Source: Limanda limanda (taxonomy: Eukaryota; Chordata; Actinopteri; Pleuronectiformes; Pleuronectidae). From it: a stretch of DNA of 64,000 nt. Within the stretch, counting starts at the first letter, position 1. Each line of letters begins with the position of its first letter. The notes beneath the pieces are model-generated. The model was not told the origin of the DNA, ran no database searches, and worked only from the letters and a program-made list of their open reading frames with translations. The translations under genes were made by a program, and so were the position numbers. Location: assembly GCF_963576545.1 (NCBI RefSeq), contig NC_083636.1, positions 8,001,856 to 8,065,855 on the forward strand. Reading direction: 5' to 3'. Below, in pieces: positions 26,658 to 64,000 of this stretch.

Positions 26658-28284
26658 GGGTTTTCCCAGTTAAAGCTGCCATCGCTGCTCTAAGATGATC
26701 CTGCTGCCTGGTCTGCTTGTTATTCTCTGGGGAGAAGCGGCTCTGTGTCTGGAGCCGGATGGAAGCTTCGCTTTCAATAGAGATATCCAGCACTACGCCG
26801 TGGCCACCAACACGGTTTAGGTTGCTACAAATGATACACTGTACCAGCTGAGCCACGACCTGACCCTGGTCCAGCGCGTGTCCCAGAGAGGAGTTCTGAA
26901 GGGCGGGGCCCAGGTGGACGAGATGCAGTTTCACAGGGTTTCTGAGACGGATTTCTCGACCTCAACTTTTAACATCAACGTGTTGCTTCCATTGGTTGAG
27001 AGTGATACTTTGATCAGCTGCGGGGTGATCGACAAAGCGTGTGGCCACTGCGAGATTCTGAAGCTGATGGACATCTCCAGCCTCCAGCACAGTGAGAGCA
27101 TCCAGGTGGGATCCCTGGATCCCAGCAGCGCGTCCGTCGCAGTCTTGGTGAAGGTGGAGAAGAATCCAACCAAGAACGACACGTACATTCTGACCGCGAT
27201 AGAGCAAAGTCCGAAGCAGAAGGAGAGGCCCAGATGCACAACTGACTTACACACTGTCCAGCTCCAGAATGCGGAGGAGAACCAGACTGGAGGCATATTT
27301 GCTCTCAGTGGCGATAGAGGCGTGCCATCTATCCAAAGCAGTGACAAAGTGGAGTTTGTGGAGTTTGTGGATGGGTTTCAGATCAGTTCCACCATGTATC
27401 TGCTCTCCAACGTGCGCTCTGCTGATACAAGCAACAGAATCCGTCTGATTTGGCTCGAGGGTAAAGGCAGCAAGACACTGACTCTCAAGTCGCTGCGAGG
27501 TGCGACTCTCAGGGTCTCTGAAGCCGGGGGTCACAGACTCGTGGCCTCCTCGGTGATCCCGGGGGCGCAGCCGGTGCTGTGGAGCGGAGTGTTCAGTGCG
27601 GACGTGGGACGGACCAACACCGAGCTGCTTGTGTTCGACATCAGCCCGGATTTCACCGGAAAAGGGAATACAGATCCAGACTTCTACAGCGGCAAGAGGA
27701 CCAGTGCCCCCTAGGTAATGGGTCCATTTCTGAAGCTTTTATATATTCGATAACAAAATAATTAATATCAATATATTGGTTATCCAGTAACTGTAAGTAG
27801 GCAGCCAGTGGGTTGTATGAGAGTCTAGCTGGTAGCTACTGAGTTGATCTTATTGAAGAGCAAAATATATAAGAAATAAAGTGTAAAGTGACATGAATTT
27901 GATTCATAAAAAAAATAAAATCCAACCCTAAGTTCATCATATCAATTTCTGTGCTGGACATACAGCTTCAGTCATTGGACTTAAAACATGACTCTCTTTA
28001 CCTGAGGACTTGGTATTGAGCCTTGAGTAATGACATGTTATTTCAAGTACCTCTTCTTTGAGCTCTGTTGGCTCCAGATGTGACGATCAATGTGTTTGTG
28101 TTTGTCAGCCGAAGACACTGAGGCCGAAAGCCGTGTTCTTCAGGCAGAGCAACATGACCTCTGTGCTGGCAGTGAGGCACAATACCTGGGTGGTTTTCTT
28201 CATCGGGACTGGAGATGGGCAACTCATTAAGGTGTGTGTCATCTCAATCTGTGCTATCTTTCATCTGTTTTCGTTGTATCAATT

Positions 28285-28480
28285 AAGTCAGTCAGTCAAG
28301 TTTTATTTTTATAACCCATATTCACAAATTGGGCTTCTAGGGTGTGACATTCTCTGTTCTTAACCCTCAGCAAGAATAAAAAAAAGTACCAAATAAAACT
28401 CATTTTAGCCAAGGGGGAAATAAAAGCTGCAGGGGATCCCTCTCCCAGGACAGACAGAGGAATGATAGATGTCACCTAGA
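28285..28480. repeat. Dispersed fish repeat in intron 2 of copy 1
   Basis: It starts with GTCAGTCAAGTTTTATTTTT and contains GGGATCCCTCTCCCAGGACAG. The same family lies at 44213-44400 and 62993-63180, and in a different subtype at 40753-40962 and 59068-59280. It is recognisable as a dispersed element common in percomorph fish. Confidence 0.65.
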
Positions 28481-28983
28481 GCACAGCACATCAACAAAGT
28501 TACAATATTTACACATTGATGAGAAAGGACAACGTGTTTGTTTCCATTTTCTTAAATGATGTCGAACTGTAACTATTCAACGCTAAATAAACATTACAAA
28601 CGGAGAGCGTACAGGCATCACTATGACATTTTTCTTTAACCTGAGCAACGCAACATACAGTTGCATCATATCCTGTATAGGCTGATGTTGACGACATTTA
28701 CATTTTCCCTTTTACACAGTAAAAGCCGTTTTTTTTTTTTTTTTATTCACCGATATTATCTCTACCTTTTAAATATTCAACACCACAGTAGCTCAGTTTC
28801 TTAGAAACATAACCAGAGCTGTACTCTTGTCATCAGCTCGCTGTGGATAAGGACTATCACACCTCCTGTCCCACGGTGCTCTACAGAGCTGATGACGATC
28901 GCCAAGTGTTTCCCAAGATTCAGCTGGATCCGGTTGATCGTAACTATGTGTACGTGCCAGTAAGAAACCAGGTTAGTGCATTT

Positions 28984-29152
28984 CTGGATCAGCGGAGTTT
29001 TGTTGTCCCGCGGCATTCTGGCTGCGGGTGAGGACGGCAGCCCGGTGTCCTACTCTCGTTCGCACGTTATAATCGCGCACGTTGTGATTAGGAAATCGCG
29101 TTTTATCATATCGAGATTTTATCGCAAATGCAATTAATCGTTCAGCCCTAAT
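28984..29152. mobile_element. Fragment of a DNA transposon in intron 3 of copy 1
   Basis: About 170 bases are present here but absent from the same intron of copy 2 (46060-46080). The right end reads AATTAATCGTTCAGCCCTAA, typical of the ends of hAT-like non-autonomous elements in fish. The left end is not recognisable, so it is probably truncated. Confidence 0.55.
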
Positions 29153-32100
29153 TGTACATGTAAAAACATACTTGTTGTGAACGGATAATTCTGATCCAAC
29201 TTATCTATGCTGTTTTTTATATCGTTTTAAAGTGTAGCTAATCGTTGTGTTTTGTTCTAGATGAAGCGTGTTCCTGTATCAAATTGCAGGACGTACAGAG
29301 ATGTGAAGGAGTGTTGGTCTGCACAGGATCCGCAGTGTGTCTGGTGTGGCTCAAAAGATAGGTGAGGAAACATCTGCATCTTTAAACAATCTGTTAACAG
29401 CTTTCCGAACAATTGTAAAGTCAGTTCTCAGATCTTTTTCTTTTTCTAGTTGCACGTTTGAAGACGACTGTGTAGATTCCGACTGGTTGTCCATTCCTGA
29501 GGATTATCAAGAGAAAATGGTTTCCCACAGTGTTGCTAAGGAGCCAACTGGCCAGGTAGAGATAAAGGACAGAGTTTGAACTATCATCAGTTGTGTCTGT
29601 CGCTTGTTTGTCCTTTAAACCCTCACATCCCGACCTCTCTCAGATCACACTGAACATCCAGACTCACCTGACCGCAGGCGAGAAGGCATGGTCTAACTTC
29701 GCCTGTCAGTTTTCTGCGAGGTCCAGTGCGATTCACTGCACCAGTGGCCCTGCTTCGATGTTCCCACAATGCACCTGCATCCTCCCTAATGGCACACTTC
29801 CTGAAGAAGGTTAGTAATCTTTGATAAATCTAATCGCATGTGAATGAGATGCACGCAATTTCCTAGGTATAGAATAGCTGTGTGCGTGAATGGCATCTAC
29901 TAACATTCAGTTGGTATTTACTAGCTGCATCTCAGTCTGCGTCTCATAATGGTGAAAGTGAAACTACCAGTGCCAGGATACTGCCACATTACCTCTGTCT
30001 TTCTTTGGACTAACTTTCCTCTTCAAGTAACTGTTTTATGACTGAAAACTATGATGAGATGAACTTTCTTTGCTGTAATGTTCATTGTTTGGTTTATCTC
30101 TGCAGTCTTTGTAAAAATTAGACTTGGGACGACGCAGTTATCGGAACGACTGACGCTGACCAAGTGCTCTGACATCGGGGGTCCGCCAACCTCTGTCCTG
30201 TAAGTCCACCGCTGCTCTACACAAATCAAACACTTACTGTGATCACATGTTTAATATCGATCATAGGTGAAAAAGATAAACCGTGCAAGTGCTGAAGAAA
30301 TTATCAGTTTCTACGATGGAGTAATAGAGCCAGTCAATGGATAAAAAAATCTGCTCTTGAAAATGAAGTCGCAATTTTAAGGTACAGTATGTGTCAGAGG
30401 CGGAATATCAGGAGATCAGCCCGTCAGTTGAGGGAGTACGGAGGATATTCTGTCTTGTAGAGAAGGAAAATAGCTGCGTGATATGTAAACAATATTTTGG
30501 CAGTTTTTTTCTCCTAAAACTAAGAATTTATTTTCACAATGCCATGCCTTTTTTCTCATAGAAATTTACTTCATTCTTGTAAAATGTAACATTATCCATG
30601 GGCCTAATACTTTGTTGTAAGTTCCCAGTTAGTTTATATGAAAAGAAAAACCTTGTCTGTAATTTTGGCATTTTTGGTGCCTATTTTGTAAGGTCTGATT
30701 TCCCTTTAGGTGTCGGCAGTGTATCGAGGCCGGATGCGGCTGGAACAAAAACAAGTGTTCCTGGGCAAATGAAGGAGTTAGAAATGTAATTATACCCATT
30801 TTCATCTATCTACCATACGTTTTTCCAGTCTTCCTATGTATTGTACCACATTGGAGACATTATTTTATCGTAAAATTGATGTTGAAACCCTGGTGGACAT
30901 TCACCTCAGCAATTATCAAAAAACTCGATCAAATATTGGACAGAAAATTTGTTGATTTTGCTTTGATTTAAATCCCAATCTCATCATGTCTTCCCTTGTC
31001 AGGAATACCAAATATTATTTATTTTTATTTTTCTCTGCACATTCATGCAACATGTAAATTATAAGGAATTAAAGTAGTTGGATTCTACCATGCTAGCTGT
31101 CTTCTACTGTTATCTTAGCTGTTAATTCCTTTGAATGTCTGTAAACCTGCTGAATTTACTCCTCTTGCTTCCTCCTGCAGGACAGTGTTTGCAAAAGGAT
31201 GGTGTCAGGAACAAAGTTTTCTGTGAGTCCGAACCCTCGACTCCCACACACGTGCTTCCCTCTGAAGTTCACGTTATTCACATTCAGTCCAATTCAAAAC
31301 ATCAGTAGGCAGTACTAATAATTATCTGTGTGTTTTACCTTGAGACGCCAGAGATCTCCTCCATCGCTCCAGGCGTTGTGTCTTTCTACGGCAGAAACCA
31401 CGCAGTGTTATACGGTCGTAACCTCAGTGACGTGACCAGAGTGAGGATACAGGCGCACACAGAATGCAAGCCACAAGAGTGAGTCAGCTCACGGACGACT
31501 AAGATTATGCATTATGCAAAGAGAACAGGCGTTAAAGGGAAATAACACCTGTCGTATACTTGATACATTCTTCAAGGTGACAGTATTGACAGGTGACTCG
31601 ATACATGTCAGTGTCCTGTCAATACATATGAATGTGCTTCTCTTTCCTAAAGCCAGAAACTGGGTGATGTAAAATATTGCTCTGCTCACAGACGTAACTA
31701 ATTACTTGGTTTTTTATCTTTAAACATTTTTTGAAAGCGATGGTAATTATCAAAAAAGACAAACTCTGCAATAGAAAAATGTTGCGCTACTGAATGTGTT
31801 TATCCAGCGATGGACAGAATAACTTATACGTGTGATCTTTCACTTTAAAACAATATAACTCTGACAGACTTTTTGGTGTCTGATGGTAAACTTGAAATTA
31901 AATCTGTTTTAGGGTTCTTGTGACCTTGGGCGTTGTTCATTTCAGCTTCTTTTTTAAGGTTGTGATATGATATATGATGTATAACACCTGTAGACTTGTA
32001 GACTATAAAAAAGCATTTAAGTGAGATTAAATTGATGTTTAATTACGTCCTTATGTTTCCACCCTCATCCCGTGCATACCTGTCAGATCTCCTGTTTGGA

Positions 32101-33894
32101 ACAACACGGGCACGAGTCTGACGTTCCACATTCCCAGTGCGGATAGTAAAGGCGTGGTCAAAGTCTGTGCCCTCCTCCCAGACGGTAGTTGCCACGGCAG
32201 CAGCAACATCACCTACCAGTCATCCCCATCCTGCTCCAACATTGTACCAAACAGCACCTGGCTCAGGTATGTTAAGATTTGTTGGTTATTTCATCCTGAA
32301 TTGTACAATGTCACTCAGTAGAACGCATACCTCCACCAAGTTTGCCACATTTAAATTAACTAGATCCAGATTTTTGGATCCAGACTAAATTCCACACAGT
32401 CTTAAATATCCCTCCCCTAAACGTGTCTGTTTTAATAATCCTCTTGAGACATCAATAAAAATGATGTAAAATGCCTTGTAAACAAATTCTGGATCGGCAC
32501 CGAAATTAGATAAGTTCAACCCTGACCCATAATGCATCCTTTCTACTAACTAACAAACAAACCCCCCTAAAAACATGAAAGTCTTTTACTTGCAGCAACT
32601 TCCACTTCTGCCTTTGTCTTTGACACTTTGCAAAAACTTGATACATTTTTTTGTGGTATGGACTATATAGGACATGATCGTTTTATAACACAGCAGGTGT
32701 GCAAAGAAAGTAATGTGACGTAATTTAGTCTTTTTAGGTTTTAGAACCTCTGTGATGTCATCAAGGTTTGAAGGGAATCTGGATGCTTCATTTAATGTCA
32801 GTATTATGGTGACAGGCTCATTAAACGGTTTTCTAAGGCTTAACTCAATTAACTAATTGAGGTAAATAAACCTCAGAAAACCGTACTGCGATAAACATAT
32901 TAGCGAGTTGAACCCCCAGCCCCTTTCTCTCTCTCTCTGTCTCTGATTGGCTGCTGCCCTGTCTCCTGGTAGTGGGAAGAGGAAGTTGACAATCATAGGC
33001 TCTCATCTGGACTTTGTGGAAGGTGTCACACAGAGCCACGCCCCGCAGGAAGTCCGACTTCCTGAAAACAGGACCTATCAGGTGGGTCTGTAGACGGACA
33101 GTGTTCCACTGTCTGGTTTAACGTCACACTGAATTACACTACACTGTCACGACATGGCAAATAATCCCAAGTAACCTTTAGCATTATGTCTAGTTTTTGA
33201 CATAACCGTAGTAATAGTCACATGTATCTTTTCAAAGTCACAAACACTTGCCGCTTTCAGACTTTTTTTGGGACGTTTCTTTCCAGACCCTTAATGTTCT
33301 GGAAATGCTGATGCTGTTGTGAACGTGTCTGCCCAGACAGTCTTCTGCTGCCTTCTTCATGTCTGAAAAACAAACTGTAGATAATGTCCAGATCCAATTT
33401 TCCAGAGTCCGTGACTGAAAACAGCAAGAAGCTCATATGTCAAACCTTGTCACATTATTACATCATGCTATTAAAATTTTTTATTAGGATTAACCCCTTG
33501 GGATGCATCAACTTGTTTTCAGTAAATTGACAAAATATGGAAAGATGATATGGATTGAATATTTGCTGGTAAATTATTCCAATCAGAAAAGCTTTAAACA
33601 ACTGCTTTGTGTTTACAAAATACATATTTGTACATGTAATATTTATTGTTTGTACTTGTACGAAATGTGGAAGGCCATTTGTTTCTGAAGCCTCAGTAGA
33701 AACAAGTAGTGTATTTGTTTGTCAGATATGTTTTGTGTTTGCTAAGCAAAATGCATTAGTTTGTTCATGGTGTGTTCAGCTGTTTGCAAGGGACAGGAAA
33801 TATCACATGAGTAGTTTTGTTATTAGTTTTGTTATTATTTGTTGTTAGCAGCGAGCCAGGGTTGTACTTTAGTGAGACGTAAAATCTGTTTGAG

Positions 33895-34200
33895 TCGTGT
33901 ATATTACCGTATAATTTACATAAAGATGAACACAACATTCCGAAACATATTGTGGGGAGATCATTGAGTTAAAAAAAAGAGAAGAGCAGTGGATGAAGAC
34001 TTGAGCCTTGTTTCACACCTCGTTCCTGTTTTCATGTATCAGATCTGTTTTTTTGTAAAACAACACATTGTTTCCTGTTATGAAGATGAGAGCTGAACCT
34101 TAGTATAGAATTGTAAAACTGTTTGTTTAAAAGAAGGCAGTGATCAACCAGATCAAAAGCTTTCTTCAAATCGATGAAGATTGCTCCTGTTTATTTATTA
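33895..34200 (-). mobile_element. LINE reverse-transcriptase fragment in intron 12 of copy 1
   Basis: Minus-strand translation gives AIFIDLKKAFDLVDH (34141-34188), then GVKQGSSLHPLLFS (about 33980-34020) and LYVNYTVIY, where an active enzyme has a YADD-type motif. These are consecutive motifs of a LINE reverse transcriptase palm. Stops interrupt the frame and the catalytic Asp pair is lost, so it is dead. Confidence 0.8.
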
Positions 34201-35276
34201 TCATTAGTTAGTTTAAGTAAAGCTATAGCTGTGGAGGGATATGATAGAAATATGTATCAGTATATCATATTCTATATAAAACAGAATGTTCTTTTTAATT
34301 CTCTGCAGAATCTCACCTTTGAAACAGTTGCAGCTGTAAATGCACAGGGGGCTTTTCCCAGCACAGTTTTTCTGAAAGTAGGCAATGAAACGTTGCCCTG
34401 CACCCCAACCATCACCTTCTACCCAGAGCCCAAGTTTATCAGCTTCAATTCCAACCGTGTGGGGGACTACGTGCGCATCACCATAGAGGTAAAGAATTGT
34501 TCTCATCTTTTTATCACACATTCACAAACACGGAGCCTTAAAAAGTTCAGCGTTGGTTCTTGTTTTCATCTCAGAAAAAGGCAGACAAACTGGAGATGAT
34601 GGAAACAGAGCTGTCAGTATGGGGCGTTGATGGAGGACATCATTACCCCTGCACCATGACGGCCAAAGAAAGTCACAGGGAGACTGACACATTTGCCTGT
34701 GAAATCCAAGGCACACAGGTTGCTGAATTTCAGCTGTTAATGGTGAGTCTAAAAGTCACAGAAACAGAGCAAGCCAGATCTTATTCATATAGTTACAAAG
34801 TAGTAAACATGTATTTGTGCATTCTCAAATTTCTTTCAAATATACTGTGATAATTGCTTATTTACAGATAAAGTATGGGGACGAGACGGTAAAACTCCAA
34901 CCTAAATCATCGTTTCCGTTCATTGGGGTGCTGCTCGTTCTGTTGCCGATATCCTGCATTATCATCATCAGTGAGTACAAAAAGTCGAGCTGAGCGATTT
35001 GAGCCATGTCGTTCCAACAAGAAAACTATTTCCTCTTTTTTTATCTGTGAAATTCAACCACTTGGTTTTGACCCCCAGTGGTGGTGATGGTTAAACTAAG
35101 CAAACAGAAGAAGCTCACCGCTAAGATGAACAGTGACATGGAAAACCTGGAGCTGGACATCAGGAATGATATCAGACAAGGTCAGTCACAAAGTCCCACC
35201 CTGTGTCCGTATGCAATGAGGAAGGTGCGGATCAAGTATCAACGCTTTAATAGAAACTTCCATCCCGACAGCGTAA

Positions 35277-36239
35277 AGGCCAATTTATGCCTCTCCGTTT
35301 TTTCTATTACGGACAGATAAGACCGCCCTATCCGTCGTGAAACGCCCTCTCCGAGTGCTTCGGACAGCTTTTCGTACACGTCTGATTTTTCTAACTATCC
35401 GTCTTCATGTTAGAGACCCGACGGACCGCTCTTGGCTGTGATTGGTCCGCGAACGACATCATTTCCGTATGACGTCATTTCCGTATTTCCGGACCTCAAA
35501 CTTCCTGTTTACTTGTAGCAACAAACACGAACACAACTATGATTCTACGATTAATGTGACGTGTGTGTTAAGCCAGCGGAGTTGTCCGGCTGACGGTGGC
35601 TCATTAGAGCACTGAGGGCATGTGTGCACGGTCACATATGGTTATAACGAGCTTTCAAAACGGCGCTAGCAGGCTAGGCTAGCCACCATGCTAACTGCGG
35701 TGGTAACAGTGCAAGAACCCGCCGTCACGACTTTAATTCCACTTCTATCATGACACTGTTTCTATAATACCGTCAGGTTAGAAGCAAACACTGGATAGTA
35801 GTTAGTGCCGGGAGTCCCTGCTGACTGTGTGTGGAAGCTGGGGGGGAGCTAGGTCCGGGTAGCTTCTAGCTACATGTAGCCTCAAGCAGATTCAAGCTGT
35901 GGAATCAGCAACACAGTTCGGAAACAAGACCGGGGAACCGCTGCGCTAAGAAACGATTACATCAGCATCTTGACCCGCTGGGTGTCACTTTATTTAGTTC
36001 TGTTAGTTGCCATGGTTCAGTGTGTGGGAGGCAGGCTAACATGTAAACAGAGACACGTGGACTTCTTCTTCCCAAATGGGGTAGGCTTCTCTGAGCTCGT
36101 CTTCCGTTGCGCCACCTATGGGTTTGGCGGGGAATTGTTTTTAGACGGATAGTCGTCGGAGAAGTAAAAATCAAAAAGACTCTTTGCCCCCCGCTGAGAC
36201 CTCTCCGAGAAACGGATACGTAGAAGTATATAAGAGCCT
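35277..36239. mobile_element. Harbinger-like non-autonomous transposon
   Basis: A 963-bp insertion is flanked by TAA on both sides (35274-35276 and 36240-36242); copy 2 has a single TAA at the empty site (53048-53050). The ends begin AGGCCAATTTATGC and AGGCTCTTATATAC when read inward. A 3-bp TWA target and such ends are typical of PIF/Harbinger elements. No transposase ORF was seen. Its interior is more CpG-rich than the surroundings. Confidence 0.8.
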
Positions 36240-36822
36240 TAATCCTCTTCCTCTGTTGTTCATCTGCAGCCTTGCTTTAAACAGAATCAGACGTGTTCCT
36301 TCTGGTGCATTTACAACAATATATTCATACCCATTAGATAAATGAACAAATTGACACGAGGGTTCCTGTATGTCTTCAAGTGTTGGACAGCATTCAGCCA
36401 CTTTGTATATGAAAGTGAGGTGACATCACAATGCCCCACTTTAGCACAATGCACGTCTTAAAGAGACGGGAGTTAAAATCAAGTGTTTCAGACGTTGAGG
36501 AGGAAAAGAGGAGCTGCAGCAACGGATAGTATGAAGAAGGCGACGTGTTTGTAATTAGATGAAGACGTCCTTTTCACTGATCATTAGAGCATGTCAACAT
36601 TTTCAAGTTATTACCCCAATTCAAACGATGAACCTGAATATAGGCATAATATGTCTCCTTGAATAAGTAAGATAAGAATAGTTATAGTATAAAGTGTTGT
36701 TTTACTATCCAAACTAAAGTCAAGTATTGAAAAGTTAGTTGCAGAACCGCATCCTGTTGTGACTTCAAAATGGAAACTTGCTTCACAAGTTAGCTTTTTT
36801 TTTTATCTCACACTGCTGAGGT

Positions 36823-36961
<139 letters not shown>

Positions 36962-37291
36962 ATACTTCACAGAGGTGGTTCAATGGTCTGGCGAGGTTGA
37001 CATGCAACAACCCACAATGACTTCCCCTCAACAGTGATGTGATGGCACTAAATTAGATCTGTGAGCCTTTGCTTCTCCTGTCGCTTCCTGTGCACTTTCT
37101 CAAACGTCATCGCAGCGAAACACTAAGATTGAGTGTCTTCTATAGAAATGACTGCACGAGTTTTCTTAATATAAGAGGATAAATCTGCTACAATCTAAAG
37201 TCTTTGATGACACGTGGCCCCACCGAACATTATTTAGAAAAAAACAATGTCATTGTAAAAAGCAACTGTGTTGTAAAATGCCCTTTTCCAG

Positions 37292-37396
37292 ATTAAAGAC
37301 AAGTTGAACGAGAACGGCGCCCCCACCGAGCTGACGGAGCAACTGCACCATTTGAAAACGCAGTTTGACGGACTGAAGAGCTGCTCCTGGAGCTGA
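37292..37396 (+). pseudogene. Retained terminal plexin-C1 exon, out of phase (copy 1)
   Basis: After a good acceptor (CCCTTTTCCAG) a 34-codon frame ends in a stop. Its pattern (IKDKLNENG, then QLHHLKTQFD, then SCSWS) fits residue for residue in spacing with the C-terminus of plexin C1 as I remember it, which ends in KCKWM. It is therefore the last exon of a full-length plexin. Exon 16 ends in phase 1 while this exon opens in phase 0, so joining them reads GAT then TAA (37294-37296). The RasGAP exons that should lie between are absent. Exon 14 ends in phase 0 and could join this exon in frame. Confidence 0.75.
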
Positions 37397-37522
37397 GCTG
37401 CCTGAGCCAGGACAGGAAGGTGGCAGTCATTTGTGTGTTAAGTAGTAATTGTCAGGGTTTCCTAATTTGTCAGTGACACGTATCATGTCTGTAGTTCATT
37501 TGTGTCGAGCATATAGTGGTTA

Positions 37523-37717
37523 AAGGTTCATTGTGTAGGATCTAGTGCCATCTAGCAGTGAGGGTGGAGATTGCTACCAACTGAATACCCTATGCTATGA
37601 CCTCTTAAGCAACGAGGATTCAGGTGATGGCATACCTATCCAAAGATGATTAGGAAAAGGATTGTCTATTTAAGTTTAATGGCCATAGATTGTCCTAAAT
37701 CCTCCACAATGAATCTT
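37523..37717. mobile_element. Short inverted-repeat element (MITE), copy 1
   Basis: The left end AAGGTTCATTGTGTAGGAT and the right end, read inward as AAGATTCATTGTGGAGGAT, are inverted repeats. The family (AAGGTTCAGTGTGTAGGATT) is common in fish. It lies in the 3' UTR region and also occurs at 54258-54452, so it predates the array duplication. Confidence 0.7.
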
Positions 37718-37965
37718 CCACTGTTCACTGTTGCGATATGAAGTTAAATACACAAAGTCAAGTGTCACAAAAAGTGTTTATCGGTAATTCATAGTCTTTT
37801 ATCAATATCATTCATGTAAAGCAGGGTGGACGTGACATCCAGTCGGTATAAACATTGTGTAATTCACAGCCTGGAGTCTGTTAAACTTTTGTATCAACTC
37901 TGTGACTCAAGAGAAAAAGTATAAAAACATCATCAAATCACAGTAGCGAGACGTGTAAATGCATC

Positions 37966-37971
37966 AATAAA
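37966..37971 (+). terminator. Candidate poly-A signal, copy 1
   Basis: AATAAA lies about 570 bases after the terminal exon and before the convergent minus-strand exon. The equivalent hexamer follows copy 2 at 54705-54710. Confidence 0.5.
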
Positions 37972-38077
37972 CGTTCAAAGTATTTGGTAAAAAAACAACA
38001 CACTGTTGGTGTCTTTGACTGGAAACCTGGGCTTGTTGTATTGCAAGTTTAATGTGAAGCAGTGTAGGGGTCAGAGG

Positions 38078-38197
38078 TCAGGCTGGGGCCCGGTCAGTCT
38101 GCGCCACAGATCCCAGTTCTTCCAGCTGCAGCTGCTGGGCGCTCTCCAGATCCTGGAGCCTGCGACGCAGCAGAGACAAGTCCCTCTGGTTGAGGTC
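38078..38197 (-). CDS. Terminal exon of a convergent coiled-coil gene (possibly cep83), copy 1
   Basis: On the minus strand a strong acceptor (TGTGTTCTGCAG) opens a 39-codon frame, DLNQRDLSLLRRRL through to QTDRAPA and a stop. Its heptad-like Leu/Glu/Gln content fits the tail of a coiled-coil protein. In human and many vertebrates the gene CEP83 lies next to PLXNC1 in convergent orientation, so cep83 is a reasonable guess, but I could not confirm the sequence. No upstream exons were found between the copies. The exon here is probably a duplicated, orphaned fragment, with the functional gene to the right of the array. Confidence 0.5.
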   Translation of the reverse strand, partial: DLNQRDLSLLRRRLQDLESAQQLQLEELGSVAQTDRAPA

Positions 38198-38391
38198 CTG
38201 CAGAACACACAGGAAGAGCAAGGTGACGCTAAAACAGCCTCGACTCACACGAAGGTACGGAACCAACTCTCTGCAATTCATTGTGTTCTATCTGGTTATT
38301 ACTGTGGTCGACAAGCTGGGACACTTGTCACATTTGAACACTATACTGTACTATATCCTTGCTGTCTCAGAGCAACTTCACACTGCAATAA

Positions 38392-39810: not shown

Positions 39811-39975
39811 AATGCTTAATAATCAGTTTGTCTTTGTTAAGGTTGACACAAAATGCTAACACTAACATTATTGATCGATGCAGTTTACTTCCCTAACATA
39901 AAAAGAAATCAAAGATTAGGGTTATTTTTTTTTCTCTCTAAAACCACTAAGACTATAGACCTCTGATAGCAAGTT

Positions 39976-40290: not shown

Positions 40291-40296
40291 GTCCTT

Positions 40297-40752: not shown

Positions 40753-40962
40753 TGTCAAATTTTATTTGTATAGCCCATATTCACAAATCACAATTTGTCT
40801 CATAGGGCTTTAGCATGGTGTGACATCCTCTGTCCTTAACCCTCAGCAAGAGTAAGGAAAAACTACTAAAACCCTTTTAACAGGTAAAAAATACGTAGAA
40901 ACCTCAGAGAGCCACATGTGAGGGATCCCTCTCCCAGGACGGACAGAAGTGCAATAGATGTC
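40753..40962. repeat. Dispersed fish repeat before the relic exon, unit 2
   Basis: It starts near TTTGTCAAATTTTATTTGTA and contains CATAGGGCTTTAGCATGGTG and GGGATCCCTCTCCCAGGACG. Its end abuts relic exon 13, so it probably inserted into or next to that exon. Confidence 0.65.
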
Positions 40963-41039
40963 CACTGAAATACGCTTCTATTCGGACCCAGAGTTTACTG
41001 GTTTCACATCCACGTGGTTTCCTACTATCCACCATAGAG
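40963..41039 (+). pseudogene. Relic plexin exon 13 upstream of copy 2
   Basis: The sequence reads RFYSDPEFTGFTST and ends CACCATAGAG before GTAC. It aligns with the end of array exon 13 ([14 protein letters not shown], ending ATCACCATAGAG before GTAAAG). A frameshift breaks the second half. The wording DPEFTGF is closer to the remembered human plexin C1 (DPRFTGY) than to the array genes, which suggests an older paralogue. Confidence 0.7.
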
Positions 41040-42588: not shown

Positions 42589-42625
42589 GGGTTTTCCCAG
42601 TTCAAGCTGCCATCGCTGCTCTAAG

Positions 42626-54029
<11,404 letters not shown>

Positions 54030-54034
<5 letters not shown>

Positions 54035-54118
54035 AGACAAGTTGAACGAGAACGGCGCCCCTACTGAGCTGATTTGAAAACGCAGTTTGAAGGACTGAAG
54101 AGCTGCTCCTGGAGCTGA
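54030..54118 (+). pseudogene. Retained terminal plexin-C1 exon, decayed (copy 2)
   Basis: Same exon as 37292-37396, but 16 bases are deleted (GAGCTG joins ATTTGAAAAC), which shifts the frame into a stop. This agrees with the exon being 3' UTR after the Asp-stop at 54030-54034, under no protein-level constraint. Confidence 0.78.
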
Positions 54119-54257
54119 GCTGCCTGAGCCACGACAGGAAGGTGGCAGGAGCCGGTAACCGTCATTTGTGTGTTAAGTAGTAATTGGCAGGGTTTCCTTA
54201 TTTGTCAGTGACACGTATCATGTCTGTAGTTCATTTGTGTCGAGCATTTACTGGTTA

Positions 54258-54452
54258 AAGGTTCATTGTGTAGGATCTAGTGCCATCTAGCAGTGAGGGT
54301 GGAGATTGCTACCAACTGAATATCCTATGCTATGACCTATTCAGTAATGAGGATTCAGGTGATTGCATAACGATCCAAAAATGATTAGGAAAAGGATTGT
54401 CTATTTAAGTTTAATGGCCATAGATTGCCTTAAATCCTCCACAATGAATCTT
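54258..54452. mobile_element. Short inverted-repeat element (MITE), copy 2
   Basis: Counterpart of 37523-37717 with the same AAGGTTCATTGTGTAGGAT end. Confidence 0.7.
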
Positions 54453-54704
54453 CCACTGTTCACTGTTGCGATATGAAGTTAAATACACAAAGTCAAAAGT
54501 GTCACAAAAAGTGTTAATCTGTAAATCATAGTCTTTTATCAATATCATTCATGTAAAGCAGGGTGGACGTGACATCAACAGTCGGTATAAACATTGTGTA
54601 ATTCACAGCCTGGAGTCTGTTCAACTTTTGTATCAACTCTGTGACTCAAAAGAAAAGGTATAAAAACATCATCAAATCAAAGTAGCGAGACGTGTAAATG
54701 CATC

Positions 54705-54710
54705 AATAAA
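54705..54710 (+). terminator. Candidate poly-A signal, copy 2
   Basis: AATAAA in the same context (TGCATCAATAAAC) as at 37966 in copy 1. Confidence 0.5.
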
Positions 54711-54816
54711 CATTCAAAGTATTTGGTAAAAAAACAAAACACTGTTGGTGTCTTTAATTGGAAACCTGGGCTTGTTGTATTGCAAGTTTAATGTGAAGCA
54801 GTGTAGGGGTCAGAGG

Positions 54817-54936
54817 TCAGGCTGGGGCCCGGTCAGTCTGCGCCACAGATCCCAGTTCTTCCAGCTGCAGCTGCTGGGCGCTCTCCAGATCCTGCAGCCT
54901 GCAACGCAGGAGAGACAAGTCCCTCTGGTTGAGGTC
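54817..54936 (-). CDS. Terminal exon of the convergent coiled-coil gene, copy 2
   Basis: The 39-codon frame and acceptor are kept from the copy at 38078-38197, with one residue change (LLRRRL to LLRCRL). No upstream exon is visible in the following spacer, so this is most likely an orphan duplicate too. See the copy 1 entry for the cep83 hypothesis. Confidence 0.48.
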   Translation of the reverse strand, partial: DLNQRDLSLLRCRLQDLESAQQLQLEELGSVAQTDRAPA

Positions 54937-55124
54937 CTGCAGAACACACAGGAAGAGCATGGTGACGCTAAAACAGCCTCGACTCACACGAAGGTACAGC
55001 ACCAACTCTCTGGAATTCATTGTGTTCTATCTGGTTATTACTGTGGTCGACAAGCTGGGACACTTGTCACATTTGAACACTATACTGTCTCGGAGCAACT
55101 TCACACTGCACTAAGTGTAAAAAT

Positions 55125-55804
55125 AAATATTGGACGTCAAATCATCAGGTTTAAAAATTAATGCTGCTCCATGTCTGCTGGGGGATGAAACCATAGACAT
55201 ATATATAAAAGATGGACAACACGTCTTAACGTTCTCTTACTATCCAGAAAAGAAACCAAAATATGAATGCTGCCGTCTCAGCTTTCAATCATAACGTTTC
55301 ACCTCATTTTTATAGCATCAAATAACTAATTATAACCAAAGGTATCAGAAAAAAATGAGAACTTGAACATCAGGGTGAAAACAATTAACTTTAAATGAGA
55401 AGCATTCAATGGGTTTTTTGATTTCTTTTAGTTTTTAGTTTGTTCCAGGTCCCGACCATTAGCATACAGGAGGCTCTTTGTTACACTGCAAGCAGTCATG
55501 TCGTCCATCTTTTCATACAGTCTATACAGATGAATGTTTAGGCTGATTCAAAGTTGCCAACAACCAATTAATGCAGGTTAAATGAAAAAAAAAAGTAAAT
55601 CACATCTCTAATTCATTTTACTGCCAAATACCATTCATCATATCTATTTACTTCTAAAACATTTGAAGGTTTAACTCATTTGGAGGAGGTCTGACACTGA
55701 AGCAGTCAGATCGGCCTTCAGAGAGCTCAACAGAGCTCATAGACTCAACTTGTGCCTCTCTGAGGACAAGGGGAAGCTCCAGGCAGCAGGTAATGTGTTC
55801 ATTA
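55125..55804. repeat. Spacer after copy 2, left part (segment A)
   Basis: Homologous to 38392-39110 and to 5985-6295 plus 8600-8720. It is interrupted on the right by the Tc1-type element. Confidence 0.65.
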
Positions 55805-55806
55805 TA

Positions 55807-57383
55807 CACTGCCCAAAAAAATTAAAGGAACACTTTGAAAACACATCAGATCTCATTGTGAAAAAAAATTATGTTGGATATTTATACTGATATGGACAGT
55901 TTAATGTCTTAAGAACAAAAGGATGCCACATCTTTGATGGAAATAAAAGTTTTCAGCCTACAGAGGGCTCAATTTTATAGACACCCCGAAAATCATAGTG
56001 AAAAAGTGATGTGGCAGGCTTGTCCAATTTGCCAAAATTCAATTTCAACTCAAAATGCTTCTCAATATCTTGTGTTGCCCCCACGTGATTGTATGCATGC
56101 TTGACAACGTCGCGGCATGCTCCTAATGAGACAACGGATGGTGTCTTGTGGGATGTCCTCCCAGATCTGTCTAAGGGCATCAGTGAGCTCCTGTAAAGTC
56201 TGAGGAGCAACCTGGCGGCGTCTGATGGACCGAAACATAATGTCCCAGAGGTGTTCTATCGGGTTTAGGTCAGGTGATCGTGAGGGCCATTCAATTGCAT
56301 CAATTTCTTCATCCTCCGGGTACTGCCTGCATACCCTTGCCACATGAGGCCTGGCATTATCGTGCATCAGGAGGAACCCAGGACCTACTGCACCAGCGTA
56401 GGGTCTGACCATGGGTTCAAGGATTTCATCTCGATACCTAATGGCAGTAAGACTGCCGTTCTCTAGCCTGTAGAGGTCTGTGCGTCCCTCCATGGATATG
56501 CCTCCCCAGACCATCACTGACCCACCACCAAACCGGTCATGCTGAACGATGTTGCAGGCAGCAGAGCGTTCTCCTTGGCTTCTCCAGACCCTTTCACGTC
56601 TATCACAGGTGCTCAGGGTGAACCTGCTCTCATCTGTGAAAAGCACAGGGCGCCAGTGGCGGACATGCCAATTCTGGTGTTCTATAGCAAATGCCAATCG
56701 AGCTCCACGGTGCTGGGCAGTGAGCACAGGGCACACTACAGGACGTCGCGCCCTGAGGCCACCCTCATGAAGTCTGTTTCTGACTGTTTGGGCAGAGACA
56801 TTCACACCAGTTGCCTGCTGGAGGTTATTCTGTAGGGCTCGGGCAGTGCTCAACCTGTTCCTACTTGCACAAAGCAGCAGATATCGGTCCTGCTGATGGG
56901 TTGAGGACCTTCTACGGCCCTGTCCAGCTCTCTTAGAGTAACTGCCTGTCTCCTGGAATCTCCTCCATGTTCTGGAGATTATGCTAGGAGACACATCAAA
57001 TCTCCTTGAAACGGCACGCATGGATGTGCCATCCTGGAGGAGTTGGACAATCTGTGCAGCTTCTGTAGGGTTAACAAATCGCCTCATGCTCCCAGTAGAG
57101 ATAATGACTCTAGCTAAAGCCAACACTAATGGAAAACCAGTCGAAGTGATCAAGAGGGAGAAACTTGAAATGGCCTCCACATGCAAAACCACTCCTATTT
57201 TGGGGGTCGTCTCATTGTTGCCCCTCTAGTGCACCTGTTGTTAATTCCATCAACACCAATGCAACTGAAACTGATGAACAACCCCCTCTGCTACTTAACT
57301 GACCAGATAATTATCAAAAAAGTGCAATTGAATTCATGCCATACCCTGATAAAAAAGTGTTCCTTTAATTTTTTTGAGCAGTG
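55807..57383. mobile_element. Tc1/mariner transposon, apparently complete
   Basis: A 1577-bp insertion is bounded by TA on each side (55805-55806 and 57384-57385). The empty site CATTATATGTGG is seen at about 39110 and 8720. The inverted ends begin CACTGCCCAAAAAAATTAAA and CACTGCTCAAAAAAATTAAA and run for about 29 bases. It encodes one transposase on the minus strand. Confidence 0.95.
56062..57087 (-). CDS. Tc1-family transposase (DD34E), full length
   Basis: 341 aa, the usual length for a Tc1 transposase, starting [15 protein letters not shown]. The upstream in-frame ATG at 57192 would add 35 residues not typical of the family. The N-terminal half holds two helix-turn-helix parts ([20 protein letters not shown] and [11 protein letters not shown]) joined by a basic GQGRRR linker that acts like the GRPR hook. 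The catalytic triad is visible: Asp in LFTDESRF, Asp in LMHDNARPH, Glu in NPIEHLWD, with exactly 34 residues between the last two. No stop or frameshift is seen. It binds the element's ends and moves it by cut-and-paste into TA sites. Confidence 0.93.
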
Positions 57384-57385
57384 TA

Positions 57386-58100
57386 TGTGGAAGTGGAGGA
57401 GGATGGAGAGGGACAATGAGGAATTTCAGCTTCTCTGACAGTTTAGTGAAGCCTCAGAGCTATTAGGATGAAGGAACAGATGGCATCCAAAAAGCTTAAT
57501 ATAGCTATGGATAGAGACTGTATATAAAGGTTTGGACAACATGTCTCCATTTCCAGAAACAGTTCCTGGTGATTTCTGAGTTTCTGATATTTCTGACTGT
57601 TGCCATCTAGACAGACAGACTCCGTAAATGTTTGATGATGATCAGCATGATAAATCATTTTCAAATATGTTTCTGAGGAAATTCTTTGTAACACGGTTTT
57701 TACAAAATCTATTAAACACTTCTTTTGACACCCCATCTACCAAATATATTCCTGTGAGAAGAAGTCTTTAGTTTTTATAATGACATACATTTTTTGCAAA
57801 CACATGATCAAGTTGAGTTTTTAGTTGTTTGTATAGTTACTTGATCATTTCATGCTCATGACATGACAAGACTAAATTAAAGATGTTTCTCATGTCCATA
57901 TTATGCAAAAGAGTCAATTACAGAAAGAACAGAGACATGTGACACAGCTGATTATCTGACGCACGTAGTGTGTCACATTGACGCACTCAGTTCCTTTTCC
58001 TTCATCTCAAGTTGGTCAGGTTGTATCTCGCCTTTGAACAGAATGAGAGATTTCTGATTAACTCAATTCGATCAAATAGAAGGACAATGCTTAATAATCA
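57386..58100. repeat. Spacer after copy 2, right part (segment A)
   Basis: Continues the homology to 39111-39810 and 8720-9290. No gene. Confidence 0.65.
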
Positions 58101-58284
58101 GTTTGGCTTTGTTAAGGTTGACACAAAATGCTAACACTTACAAAGAATTTAGAAACATCTGTGATTGCTTGACAAAATGATTGATCGATGCAGTTTACTT
58201 CCCTAACATAAAAAGAAATCAAAGATTAGGGTTATTTGTTTTCTCTCTAAAACCACTAAGACTATAGACCTCTGATAGCAAGTT

Positions 58285-58600
58285 GACGAAAAAAGAAGAT
58301 GCGTCTGACCTTCCCAGATGCAGATGTGGACGCAGCGCTGGATGGGAGGAGGGATGTGTGCAGCTGGATGGAAGGACAGAGACCGAGCAGCAGCTCTCAC
58401 TGGGATGAATGAAGCTCTGAAACGAAGGGTCAGTGAAAATATACGTAGCGGAGCTGCTGGAGATCCCGACACTCTGCTGCCTCTGACCGGGCTGCTGCTG
58501 CATGCCGCTGCATGTCTATACCCAGGGAGACAGCGACCTCTAGCGACTGAGAGTGGAAACAAGCTCCGAGCAGGAATGTCCTGATTCAAACAACCCTCTG
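58285..58600 (-). promoter_or_regulatory. Duplicate of the candidate rerg first-exon island (unit 3)
   Basis: Near-identical to 24155-24470 and 39976-40290, again without the splice donor. Confidence 0.45.
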
Positions 58601-58609
58601 TCCTTAAAA

Positions 58610-58880
58610 GGAATAGTTCTCCCCAAAAAAATGAAAATTCACTCATTATCTACTCACCACTTGGCCGATGGAGGGTTGGGGGAAGTGTTTCAGGGGTAAA
58701 CGGACCAATCCAAAACAATTGAGATAAATGGTGAGCGCTTCTTTAAACATAAAAAAACTAATGCCTCCATGCTGCTCCTGTGGTGTTTGTGGTGTTTAAT
58801 TGTCTGTAAGCCCCGCATTCAAATTCCACCTTTAAGTCTGGTCCGTCTCAAATCACACAGAACAACTTAGTCTTTTGTGT
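58610..58880. repeat. Dispersed fish repeat (TTAAAGGGATAGTTC type), unit 3
   Basis: Counterpart of 40297-40560. Confidence 0.6.
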
Positions 58881-59067
58881 AATAGCTGGCTGGATGATAA
58901 ATCATTGTACATTGTATTTTTCACTAGTATGAGCATTTTTGAATTATGTGTCGATGTATGGGGCAATATACAAAACCAACTACTGCAGAATTCTCACCTG
59001 CAGCTGAGAAAACACAAGCGATTTTACCAGCACTGTGTCGAAACCTTGTGCTGCTCCAATCAATTTA

Positions 59068-59280
59068 TCAAATTTTATTTGTATAGCCCATATTCACAAA
59101 TCACAATTTGTCTCATAGGGCTTTAACATGGTGTGACATCCTCTGTCCTTAACCCTCAGCAAGAGTAAGGAAAAACTACTAAAAACCCTTTTAACAGGTA
59201 AAAAATACGTAGAAACCTCAGAGAGAGCCACATGTGAGGGATCCCTCTCCCAGGACGGACAGAAGTGCAATAGATGTCCA
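59068..59280. repeat. Dispersed fish repeat before the relic exons, unit 3
   Basis: Counterpart of 40753-40962; it ends directly at relic exon 13. Confidence 0.65.
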
Positions 59281-59283
59281 CTG

Positions 59284-59601
59284 AAATACGTTTCTATTCG
59301 GACCCAGAGTTTACTGGTTTCACATCAACGTGGTTTCCTACTATTCACCATTGAGGTAGAGCATATTTTCCGCACACAAGTACACACATATGGCACCAAT
59401 TCATGAAAGGTCAGCATTTGCATGTGTTATCATTTCAGAAAAAGGCGGACATCCTGGAGATGATGACAGCAGGATGGTCAGTATGGGGAGTTCGGGTGTA
59501 AAATCAGTATCCCTGCATCGTGAAGGCCAAAGAAACCACTTGCAAGAAGTGACTTCTTCGTGAAATTCACAGCACACCGGATGCTGAATTTTAGCATTTA
59601 A
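59284..59601 (+). pseudogene. Relic plexin exons 13 and 14 upstream of copy 3
   Basis: Both relics occur here in gene order: exon 13 end at about 59284-59355 (FYSDPEFTGF, ending TTGAG before GTAG) and exon 14 at about 59439-59601 (KKADILEMMTAGWSVWGV, then a stop, then QYPCIVKAKE). The intron between them is about 80 bases, as in the array genes. This is the best-preserved trace of the vanished older gene. Confidence 0.82.
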
Positions 59602-61339
59602 GGTAAATTTATTCAAACTTCAACAACCTGGACAGTATATGTCTTTTGGAGCAACTATCTATATAAAAATATGAACATGAATCAAGGTTTGATTATGATT
59701 CTGTATAATTGTGTCCAGGTATGTTCAATAACCCAGTGTAATATTGAAGGATTTTCCTGCTGCTTTCAATTGAGTCTGGGGATACAATGGTGGTAGAAAT
59801 ACTGATTAAGAACCTTTTCCGCTGCATTGATATTCATTTATTTTGTCAGCTTGGTTTAAATCAGTAATTAATCCTCACTGATTCCCCCTGAACCAGAATA
59901 AAATGAGCAATATTGAAATGCATCGTCAGCGTCTTTGCTCAAGGAGGCCGCCTTTAGTTTTTAAAAGGTTTGATAACATTTCGATTTGGAGCATCCTTCT
60001 GAGAGCCGCTGTCCGTTCCTTGCTGACTAAAAATAATTGCTGAGATAGGTCAAGAAATAGTCCACGTATAACACCCTGTAATACCACACTTTTTTTACCC
60101 ACGTTTTACAGATTTAACAAACAATATTTACCAGTGACTTTTAAAGGTGTCGGTGCCATTGAGAGCCTTTCTGACATTGATCCTTTTTTTACAGTATGTG
60201 TGTGAAGCCTTTTTACCTCTGAAGTGTCATTGGTAGTTTTTTGCCTTGTGTGTACACAACATACAGTATAGCTTAAGTTTGACTCTTGCACTGCTCAGCA
60301 CATCAGTTTTACTGCAGACATTAAACCTTTGACACATTATCGCCACAGTGACCCCTCAAGGAGGAAAGACCCTCACCAAACGAGTCCTCACTGCAGTCAG
60401 CAAAGTATGTACGGTGCGGCCTTGATTCATGCCCCGAGGATCACCTGTGTCATCAACTCCATGTCAAAATGGTTGCTCTGATAAAGTGTCACATTGTTAA
60501 ACAGGAGCAAATCTGGAACTGAACCTGACAAAAATAGTGAAACCAAAGTATATTGCACGTCTCTTAATGGCTAAATGATAAATAAAAACAATAGGAAAGG
60601 AAACTTTAAACTACATCAGGAAAACATGTGGGCCTCCGTGACAAGAACAAACTAATTCTGAAATATAGGCATCATTCAGACAAACTGGAATGGCTTTGGA
60701 TTCAACTCTTTCGGTTCAACCACAAGAGGGTAGTATACGACTCTTTAAAATATTCTGTATTTTATGTTGCTAACTGTTTATAAGTAATTTTTGTTACGAT
60801 TAAGCGGTAATGCCAGTGATAAAGTAGCTGGAAATATGAATGTTAACTCCCATTGAGTCATGCTTATAATTTGATGTTATTGATTATTTGGAAAAACAAC
60901 TTTGCAGAGCAGACATGTCATCCAGTCGTTTCTTGTTGACATCTTCTGTGTTTCATTCTGCTCTGGTGTGGTCAGTGGTCAGTGGTGGTAGCAGCTTATG
61001 AAGTGGAAAGCAAAGGGGGGGGTTCTCGCCCACCGCCCCACGACTTTGTCCTGTGGGGATATCAGCAGGAGGCTGTCGTGGTCAGGAATCATCCCAGGAG
61101 CGCACTCGTCATTGGGTATATCAGACTGAAACTCTGTAGATCTGGTTTTAAACACGATTAAAGTGGGATCAATTAAGCTGAATGAATCCAATAATGAGTC
61201 AGAGTCATCATGTCATTGAGATAGTTGTTTTTCGTTTTCGATGCGCGCTCCCCTCCCACTTTGACCACTTCTGTTTTCTGCTGAGGCGCTGCGCTTTTAC
61301 GCACGGCTCCAGTGACAGTGTGGTGGAGTGTGTGGTGCC

Positions 61340-61360
61340 ATGCAGGCCGTCAGTGTGTGA
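61340..61360 (+). promoter_or_regulatory. Upstream ORF in the 5' leader of copy 3
   Basis: Same MQAVSV ORF; one T fewer in the following T/C run changes the spacing to the main ATG by one base. Confidence 0.5.
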
Positions 61361-61396
61361 GGGTTTCCCAGTTCAAGCTGCCATCGCTGCTCTAAG

Positions 61397-64000
61397 ATGA
61401 TCCTGCTGCCTGGTCTGCTTGTTATTCTCTGGGGAGAAGCGGCTCTGTGTCTGGAGCCGGATGTAAGCTTCACTTTCAATAGAGATATCCAGCACTACGC
61501 CGTGGCCACCAACACGGTTTACGTTGCTACAAATGATACACTGTACCAGCTGAGCCACGACCTGACCATGGTCCAGCGTGTGACCCAGAGAGGAGTTCTG
61601 AAGGGCGGGGCCCAGGTGCCGTTTCACCGGGTTTCTGAGGCGGATTTCTCGGACGCAACTTTGAGCATCAACGTGTTGCTTCCATTGGTTGAGGACGATA
61701 CTTTGATCAGCTGCGGGGTGATCGACAAAGAGTGTGGCCACTGCGAGATTCTGAAGCTGATGGACATCTCCAGCCTCCAGCACAGTGAGAGCATCCAGGT
61801 GGGATCACTGGATCACAGCAGCGCGTCCGTCGCAGTCTTGGTGAAGGTGGAGAAGAATCCAACCAAGACCGACACGTACATTCTGACCGCGTTAGAGCAA
61901 AGTCCGAAGCAGAAGGAGAGGGCCGAAAACTGCTCAACTAACTTAGCCACTGTCCAGCTCCAAAACACAGAGAAGAACCAGGATGGAGGCATATTTTCTC
62001 TCATTGAAAATCAAGGCACGCCATCGATCAAAAGCATTGACAAAGTGGAGTTTGTGGAGTTTGTGGATGGATTTCAGATCAGTTCCACCATGTATCTGCT
62101 CTCCAACGTGCGCTCTGCTGATACAAGCAACAGAATCCGTCTGATTTGGCTCGAGGGTAAAGGCAGCAAGACACTGACTCTCAAGTCGCTGCGAGGTGCG
62201 ACTCTCAGGGTCTCTGAAGCCGGAGGTCACAGACTCGTGGCCTCCTCCGTCATCCCGGGGGCGCAGCCGGTGCTGTGGAGCGGAGTGTTCAGTGCGGACG
62301 TGGGACGGACCAACACCGAGCTGCTTGTGTTTGACATCAGCCCGGATTTCACCGGAAAAGCGAATACAGATCCAGACTTCTACAGCGGCAGCAGAGAGTC
62401 CAGTGCCCCCGAGGTAATGGGTCCATTTCTGAAGCTTTTATAGATTCGATAACAAAATAATTAATAATCAATATATTGGTCATCCAGTAACTGAAAGTAG
62501 GCAGCCAGTGGGTTGTATGAGAGTCCAGCTGGTAGCTACTGAGTTGATCTTATTGAAGAGCAAAATATATAAGAAATAAAGTGTATAACTAATAAGTGAC
62601 ATGCATTTTATTCATTAAAAAAGTAAAATCCAACACTAAGGCTAGACTTACAGCTTCAGTCATTGGATTTAAAACATGAACATGACCCTCTGTACCTGAG
62701 AACTTGGTATTGAGCCTTGAGTAATGACATGTTATTTCAAGTACCTCTTCTTTCGAGCTCTGTTGGCTCCAGATGTGACGATCAATGTGTTTGTGTTTGT
62801 CAGCCGAAGACACTGAGGCCGAAAGCCGTGCTCTTCAGGCACAGCAACATGACCTCTGTGCTGGCAGTGAGGCACAATACCTGGGTGGTTTTCTTCATCG
62901 GGACTGGAGATGGGCAGCTCATTAAGGTGTGTGTCATCTCAATCTGTACTACTGATATCTTTCATCTGCTTTTATTGTATCAATTATGTCAGTCAGTCAA
63001 CTTTTATTTGTATAACCCATATTCACAAATTGGGCTTCTAGGGACATTCTCTGTTCTTAACCCTCAGCAAGAATAAGAAAAAGTACCAAATAAAACCCAT
63101 TTTAGCCAAGGGGGAAATAAAGCTGCGCGGGATCCCTCTCCCAGGACAGACAGAGGAACGATAGATGTCACCTGGAGCACAGCACATCAACAAAGTAACA
63201 ATATTTACACATTGATGAGAAAGGACAACGTGTTTGTTTCCATTTTCTTAAATGATGTGGAGCTATAATTATTCAACGCAAGATAAACATTACAAACGGA
63301 GAGAGTACAGGCATCACTATGACATTTCTGTTTAACCTTTTAACCTGAGCAACGCAACATACAGTTGCATAATATCCTGTATTGTTGATGGCTAAGTGAG
63401 GCAACGTAGTGCAAGTCACACGATGTGGACACGACGAGGGGACAGAAAAGCCAGCACGAAGAGTTGAAGATTTCAACACGCTGCATTTTTTATTTTCTCC
63501 GATGGTGTGAGCTCTTAGAGAAAACCCAGCGTCCTCCATTAGGACTGAAAGGCACGAGTGGATCAATGTTTGCCTCAACAATCACAATGGTGGCGGCCAT
63601 TAGCTCGTGTCCTGAACTACACACAGTCCACTGCTTCAACACAGCCACTCATCGCAGCAGCTGATGATGTTTCCATGATTTCTTCTTTACAGTGTTAGCA
63701 AACCCAACTGGATTAAAATTTAACAATTGGTCAAAAGCAGCAATAATAAAGAAAGAAAGAAGTTTAGGATTGTGTCAAATTGGAATTAAAGGGTTAAGAA
63801 AAACAAACTTCAATCTGATTTAGATTAATAATAATCAGCAAGTGTTAATTCACTCTGATGAACATTACTTTGTTTTTATTTCCCCCTTGCACTGTCTTGC
63901 TGACGTACATATATACACACTCTCGCATATCAAGTGTGTGTTATTCAATAGCTGAAAATAGTCCATAAAAAATTGCTATTTATTGAAGAGCTAACATGTG
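61397..64000 (+). CDS. Plexin-C1-like gene, copy 3 (5' part only)
   Basis: Two exons are in the window: 61397-62413 (339 codons: signal peptide MILLPGLLVILWGEAALC and most of the Sema domain) and 62804-62926 (41 codons, with GTGDGQLIK). The window ends in intron 2; by offset from copy 2 the next exon would lie near 64.7 kb. Both exons are open with good splice sites, so this copy is probably functional. Whether it keeps a RasGAP tail or is truncated like copies 1 and 2 cannot be seen. From residue about 220 on it is almost base-for-base equal to copy 2. Confidence 0.88.
62993..63180. repeat. Dispersed fish repeat in intron 2 of copy 3
   Basis: Counterpart of 44213-44400, with a few substitutions. 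Confidence 0.65.

Follow-up and report, generated by a model that had tools for sequence, protein, structure and literature searches.

A plexin-C1-like gene without RasGAP exons beside full-length plxnc1 in common dab, a candidate decoy or dominant-negative receptor

Vertebrate plexins are regarded as signalling receptors bearing a RasGAP domain. What, then, is a plexin gene for that has kept its ectodomain and its membrane anchor and has lost this domain? The question is raised by a stretch of 64,000 bp (C1:8,001,856-8,065,855) in the 717-Mb assembly of the common dab (Limanda limanda), below called the window, on whose scale all positions are given. Its plexin-C1 content consists of two copies lacking RasGAP (GAP-less; copies 1 and 2) and the beginning of a third, copy 3, which is an ordinary plxnc1. 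Our reading, to which we assign a probability of roughly 0.55, is that copy 2 arose by tandem duplication of the neighbouring full-length plexin-C1 gene and lacks all of its RasGAP exons except the last, that its Sema end probably owes its match to that gene to recent conversion, and that it encodes a predicted membrane-anchored receptor which would likely bind the same ligands and not signal.

An open GAP-less copy beside a signalling gene

Copy 2 spans positions 42,626-52,966, with a terminal exon at 54,030, and is open over 942 codons that end in Asp-stop. Exons 1-16 are open, every splice site is GT-AG and in phase, and together they encode a signal peptide through to a juxtamembrane helix. 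The signal peptide and most of the predicted Sema domain are in exon 1 (42,626-43,633, + strand, as are all exons of this copy). Exons 2-14 (44,024-52,510) hold the remainder of Sema, the PSI and PSI-like domains and the IPT region, with PSI and TIG above the Pfam cut-off; exon 15 (52,653-52,755) encodes the membrane-proximal end and the transmembrane helix, and exon 16 (52,865-52,966) the juxtamembrane helix, ending with NDIRQ in phase 1.

The stop is supplied by a leftover of the signalling region. A tblastn search with the full-length protein of plaice matched the last plxnc1 coding exon beside copy 2 (54,027-54,115). Joined to exon 16, this retained exon (54,030-54,115) reads GAT TAA, out of frame with respect to plxnc1, giving a protein of 942 residues. 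The resulting end, NDIRQD, is the same as in GAP-less models of plaice (P0003) and flounder (P0004), and an AATAAA is present 3' of the exon, at 54,705. A stop codon inside the last exon is not expected to elicit nonsense-mediated decay; since the Asp-stop lies there, the copy 2 message is expected to escape it. An alternative in-frame terminal exon (53,301-53,371, + strand) gives a 17-exon model of 964 amino acids (aa) in which all introns are also GT-AG and in phase. However, this exon does not align to copy 3 and its equivalent in copy 1 contains a stop, so that it is less likely and the last exon at 54,030 is preferred.

The Sema assignment in copy 2 is based on a match to human plexin-C1 and on a predicted fold. 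The Pfam Sema model had no match to copy 2 at E <= 1, a point against our reading, and the window is absent from the listing of a genome-wide Sema scan. Against the human plexin-C1 structure (6vxk) copy 2 scored E 4.6e-58, with 273-944 as the best stretch, and its predicted fold matches both 6vxk and 3nvq across the Sema propeller. A class C plexin ectodomain, with Sema, PSI and IPT homologous to plexin-C1, was thus recognised. In the part available of the structure paper (PMC7181871), the disulfide between Sema and IPT2 of human plexin-C1 is formed by Cys412 and Cys703. After matching of the human numbering (offset of 34), C388 and C657 of copy 2 align with this pair, and neither varies among 56 sequences.

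Copy 3 starts at 61,397 on the + strand and has exons 1-2 inside the window (61,397-64,000). Its exons 3-16 follow past the window end (64,755-71,572), and its RasGAP and RBD exons at about 72,661-80,684 on the same strand, some 9 kb past the window edge; their edges come from a home-made spliced alignment, in which the first few short exons are artefacts. A TGA after 80,684 closes the frame, for a protein of about 1,516 residues with a full Plexin_cytopl domain (Pfam E 1.5e-165) and RBD. A search of the flanking sequence for a full-length plxnc1 had been proposed beforehand, and copy 3 is that gene. It corresponds to PLXNC1, the receptor for Sema7A and for its poxvirus mimic, A39R, with which copies 1 and 2 share the exon plan and the ectodomain, including the Cys pair just described; they differ from it in lacking RasGAP and RBD, of which the last exon alone remains, and copy 2 in its Asp-stop after the juxtamembrane helix.

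Copy 1 (26,695-35,180, + strand) has the same 16 ectodomain, transmembrane and juxtamembrane exons. It also retained the last plxnc1 coding exon (37,292-37,393, + strand; tblastn match with the full-length plaice protein at 37,289-37,393), which is 97% identical to plaice residues 1474-1508. Since exon 1 contains two in-frame stops, the assembled copy 1 is a pseudogene. Identity to copy 2 is 89-100% across exons 1-16 of the other two copies, so the resemblance among the three is beyond chance. When the dab genome was searched with the protein of copy 2, these three copies and no others were found, a count that is a lower bound.

The original prediction had described this region as a tandem array of GAP-less plexins. 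Its anatomy of copies 1 and 2 (plexin-C1 ectodomain exons, transmembrane helix and juxtamembrane exon, no RasGAP) agrees with the exon comparison, as does the 942-aa frame of copy 2 with its matching phases. The array itself holds for these two copies and fails for the third unit, from 61,397, with its RasGAP region at about 72.66-80.68 kb. With copy 1 broken and copy 3 full-length, the idea of several decoys in the window has to be given up: the locus consists of a single signalling receptor and two GAP-less twins, of which one is open and the other broken. We also considered a cluster in which copy 2 shares its RasGAP exons with a neighbour. This locus has one set of RasGAP exons, and it follows the ectodomain exons that belong to copy 3. 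A transcript that joins exon 16 of copy 2 to RasGAP exons seems unlikely, because it would have to skip the whole 16-exon ectodomain part of copy 3 to reach the nearest one. The signalling gene and the GAP-less gene of dab are physically separate.

Probable deletion and conversion

Compared with copy 3, about 7.9 kb is absent from copies 1 and 2, comprising every RasGAP exon except the last. Past exon 16 both align to copy 3 until 72,370, and the alignment resumes at about 80,279 or 80,320. The 5' edge of the deletion is at a GT repeat. In copy 1 the junction (36,735-37,019, or 36,852-36,995 in a narrower listing, + strand) is a long GT repeat followed by a remnant, recognised by eye, of the end of the penultimate plxnc1 exon; in copy 2 it is likewise a long GT repeat (53,544-53,840, narrower 53,655-53,814, + strand), whereas the GT tract at the corresponding position of copy 3 is short. 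Because the deletion edges are near-identical in copies 1 and 2, the comparison suggests that one deletion, followed by duplication, gave rise to both. The dab case indicates that a GAP-less gene can arise by one internal deletion, with the surviving last exon supplying the stop.

At the other end of the gene, copy 2 and copy 3 are identical over 845 bp (43,472-44,316 against 62,252-63,096, + strand), a stretch that begins in the last part of exon 1, takes in intron 1 and exon 2 and ends in the first part of intron 2. Their mean identity is 90.5% over 15,019 aligned columns and 96.1% over the whole of exon 1; the next longest exact matches are 210 and 198 bp. An exact stretch of this length against such a mean makes it likely that the Sema ends of the GAP-less gene and its signalling neighbour underwent recent gene conversion.

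GAP-less plexin-C1-like models in other fish

GAP-less plexin-C1-like protein models, running from Sema to the transmembrane helix as in copy 2, are present in dozens of fish. Three protein searches, from which the best 120 of 265, 135 and 182 matches were taken, were pooled to 170 proteins; among the matches listed, 69 of these had no more than 1,044 residues and lacked the RasGAP motif used. This motif missed eight longer rows, seven of which carry a RasGAP Pfam label, and was found in four rows below 1,100 residues; some short rows are clearly partial models. Short and full rows lie on contigs of equal length in 18 of the 20 species with a contig given for both (hand count, matches listed), the exceptions being Scomber scombrus and Cyprinodon variegatus. 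A 1,406-aa model of Merluccius polli named 'Plexin-C1' (P0153) has two ectodomain pieces in a row and no RasGAP label; perhaps it represents two neighbouring genes fused by annotation.

Trees were made from 72 rows (69 hand-picked of the 120 proteins from the first search, plus the three dab copies), 33 full and 39 short, the latter including three dab rows of which two are the same protein. In the Sema tree the short label required 28 changes, against a shuffled mean of 24.1 (493 of 500 shuffles were as low), so that short and full rows are mixed. Rows of the same species grouped together in 12 of the 14 species with both forms; plaice grouped with flounder instead, and Sarotherodon with Oreochromis. 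The tree of the transmembrane and tail region, from 105 columns and by a quick method, required 9 changes (no shuffle out of 500 was as low) and placed 27 of the 39 short rows in one clade (support 99). That of exons 13-16 was intermediate (19 changes; 9/500). In addition, a short row was compared with a full one in 22 pairs, some of which combine two species of the same genus; in 21 of them similarity was lower in exon 15 than in exon 1, with dab copy 1 as the exception. Together, these protein comparisons suggest that the main tail type is old and that most Sema halves match those of their own species.

The fish of the main tail clade, a percomorph type, share a distinct transmembrane segment and short tail of about ..RILLIPC..VIICRWQKKLTAEMNKL, which the flatfish copies do not have. 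The short rows of dab, plaice and flounder group with full-length tails in the same tree, and since they carry this type of tail the loss of the GAP in flatfish looks separate. A single gain of GAP-lessness in all fish is not supported, as the flatfish fall outside the tail clade, in a tree of few columns. Besides five flatfish rows, the 12 short rows outside the clade are from Pagrus (P0028), Cebidichthys, Lycodopsis (P0038), Anoplopoma, Melanotaenia, Semicossyphus and Labrus.

The short protein P0164 of the salmonid Salvelinus alpinus is a GAP-less plexin-C1-like model of 927 aa that is 96% identical to full-length rows over 883 residues and differs from them in its transmembrane segment and tail. 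The same fall in identity along the protein was seen in P0158, a short protein of a cusk-eel.

Upstream of each dab copy there is also a plexin-C1 remnant resembling exons 13-14: one with several stops upstream of copy 3 (59,214-59,618, + strand) and related ones on the side of copy 1 (24,708-24,899) and of copy 2 (40,961-41,014). The two longer ones contain stops. Possibly they are the relics of an older GAP-less sibling gene that survives in other fish. An assignment to that older family was tried and dropped, as a GAP-less query gave 55.8 and 70.9 bits versus 54.7 and 68.9 for full-length queries. Between copies 2 and 3 lies a Tc1-like transposase, an open frame of 387 aa on the - strand (56,062-57,225) with a Tc3-type helix-turn-helix (PF01498, E 4.5e-22) and DDE_3 (PF13358).

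Decoy, young pseudogene or co-receptor

Several further observations weigh against a functional receptor. The ratio of nonsynonymous to synonymous substitution rates (dN/dS) is 0.95 between copies 2 and 3, 0.88 between copies 1 and 2 and 0.76 between copies 1 and 3; given the first of these values, purifying selection on copy 2 is not supported and the gene may be decaying. In simple neutral simulations copy 2 would be free of stops in 19% of the runs (probability 0.19), and its sister, copy 1, is already broken. The cross-species results are from automatic protein models, the DNA level being covered for dab alone. Shared exons or annotation could yield part of the within-species pairing; the two forms of Anabas, short and full, do not differ in their Sema rows. 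The seven short rows of other fish outside the tail clade are perhaps partial models or further losses. Finally, the NCBI model of dab (P0002, plexin-C1-like), identical to copy 2 at 100% over 94% of the query, has 914 aa, reads into intron 15 and omits exon 16.

That model would fit a gene that mainly yields a form ending just past the membrane helix, possibly shed as a soluble trap. We consider this very improbable: the membrane helix is present in the 914-aa model, and exon 16 and its splice sites are kept in all three copies. The dN/dS value, the neutral simulations and the two stops of copy 1 would all accord with copy 2 being a young pseudogene from tandem duplication and deletion, still without a stop and kept tidy by chance conversion from copy 3. 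This we regard as rather unlikely, though a serious alternative. All nine coding indels of copy 2 are multiples of three, no splice site has been lost and the Cys columns are intact (30 of 30), each weak evidence alone; open GAP-less models with the same end exist in plaice and flounder, and GAP-less siblings beside full-length plxnc1 across many fish.

We favour the reading of copy 2 as a receptor that binds and does not signal, most likely a decoy or a dominant-negative partner. The absence of a signalling domain expected of a decoy is seen in copy 2. As far as the available parts of the sources describe it, semaphorin pairs up two plexin molecules, and this dimer switches on the RapGAP, with the juxtamembrane region of one partner acting on the other (Wang et al. 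2013; the 2020 cryo-EM paper, PMC7181871). With the same ectodomain and juxtamembrane helix, copy 2 would compete with plexin-C1 for semaphorin, either a host Sema7A-type ligand or a pathogen mimic, and would pair with full-length plexin-C1. Because the RapGAP needs a ligand-induced dimer of two cytoplasmic domains, pairs with a GAP-less partner would be dead, and copy 2 would act as a decoy or dominant negative.

Alternatively, the GAP-less twin could aid plexin-C1 as a ligand-handling co-receptor or adhesion partner, presenting the ligand in cis or trans or allowing reverse signalling via Sema7A. The kept ectodomain and membrane anchor would suit such a role, as would the short tails of the main fish clade, which are similar between families. 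It is an unlikely one in our view, as it demands a positive role for which nothing here speaks, and dimer activation, in the parts of the sources cited above, needs two GAP-bearing tails. The original prediction had left the choice between decoys and co-receptors open; the GAP-less family it proposed is borne out by the models in dozens of fish, and the anatomy would fit such roles, although not as a multi-copy array at this locus.

The arrangement resembles paired immune receptors, whose binding ends are alike and whose tails differ. In Siglec-11/Siglec-16 (PMC5701461) and the CEACAM families (PMC2832619), as far as the parts available go, binding ends are homogenised within species and tails differ, as here; those pairs are inhibitory and activating, whereas dab has a signalling and a tail-less plexin. 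Conversion at the binding end is indicated in dab by the 845-bp tract, and is suggested in other fish by the within-species pairing at the protein level. All 12 pairs of full-length proteins compared, with no other-plexin control, were less conserved in Sema than in the cytoplasmic region (84.5% versus 95.1% identity between dab and plaice), which fits an ectodomain that may be contested.

In mammals, truncated or secreted plexin isoforms, such as those of plexin-B1, are forms of one gene. These likewise present an ectodomain without the signalling region; copy 2 differs in being a separate gene with an internal deletion. The principle of decoys and paired receptors is known; the literature searched yielded no plexin counterpart that is encoded by a gene of its own and matched by conversion. 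Nothing came up on tandem plexin C1 in teleosts or on plexin-C1-like genes, and in broader searches, among them one on plxnc1 in fish, GAP-less plexin genes were described in none of the titles and abstract openings listed (bioRxiv not covered, and few subscription papers). No paper was found on a viral semaphorin with grouper iridovirus; flatfish viral semaphorins were not searched for in sequence collections.

More tentatively, plexin-C1 of bony fish may form a paired-receptor system with a conversion-matched Sema half, whose GAP-less twin has been lost and re-made more than once and serves either to fend off semaphorin mimics, as a standing defence, or to restrain Sema7A signalling. The re-made twins would then be the shared percomorph tail type, the separate internal deletion in right-eye flatfish and a further salmonid tail type. 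If this is true, a conversion-matched GAP-less sibling would act as a naturally occurring dominant negative on semaphorin signals in the immunity and the nerve wiring of fish. It would also provide a natural experiment on whether plexin-C1 signalling requires two GAP-bearing partners.

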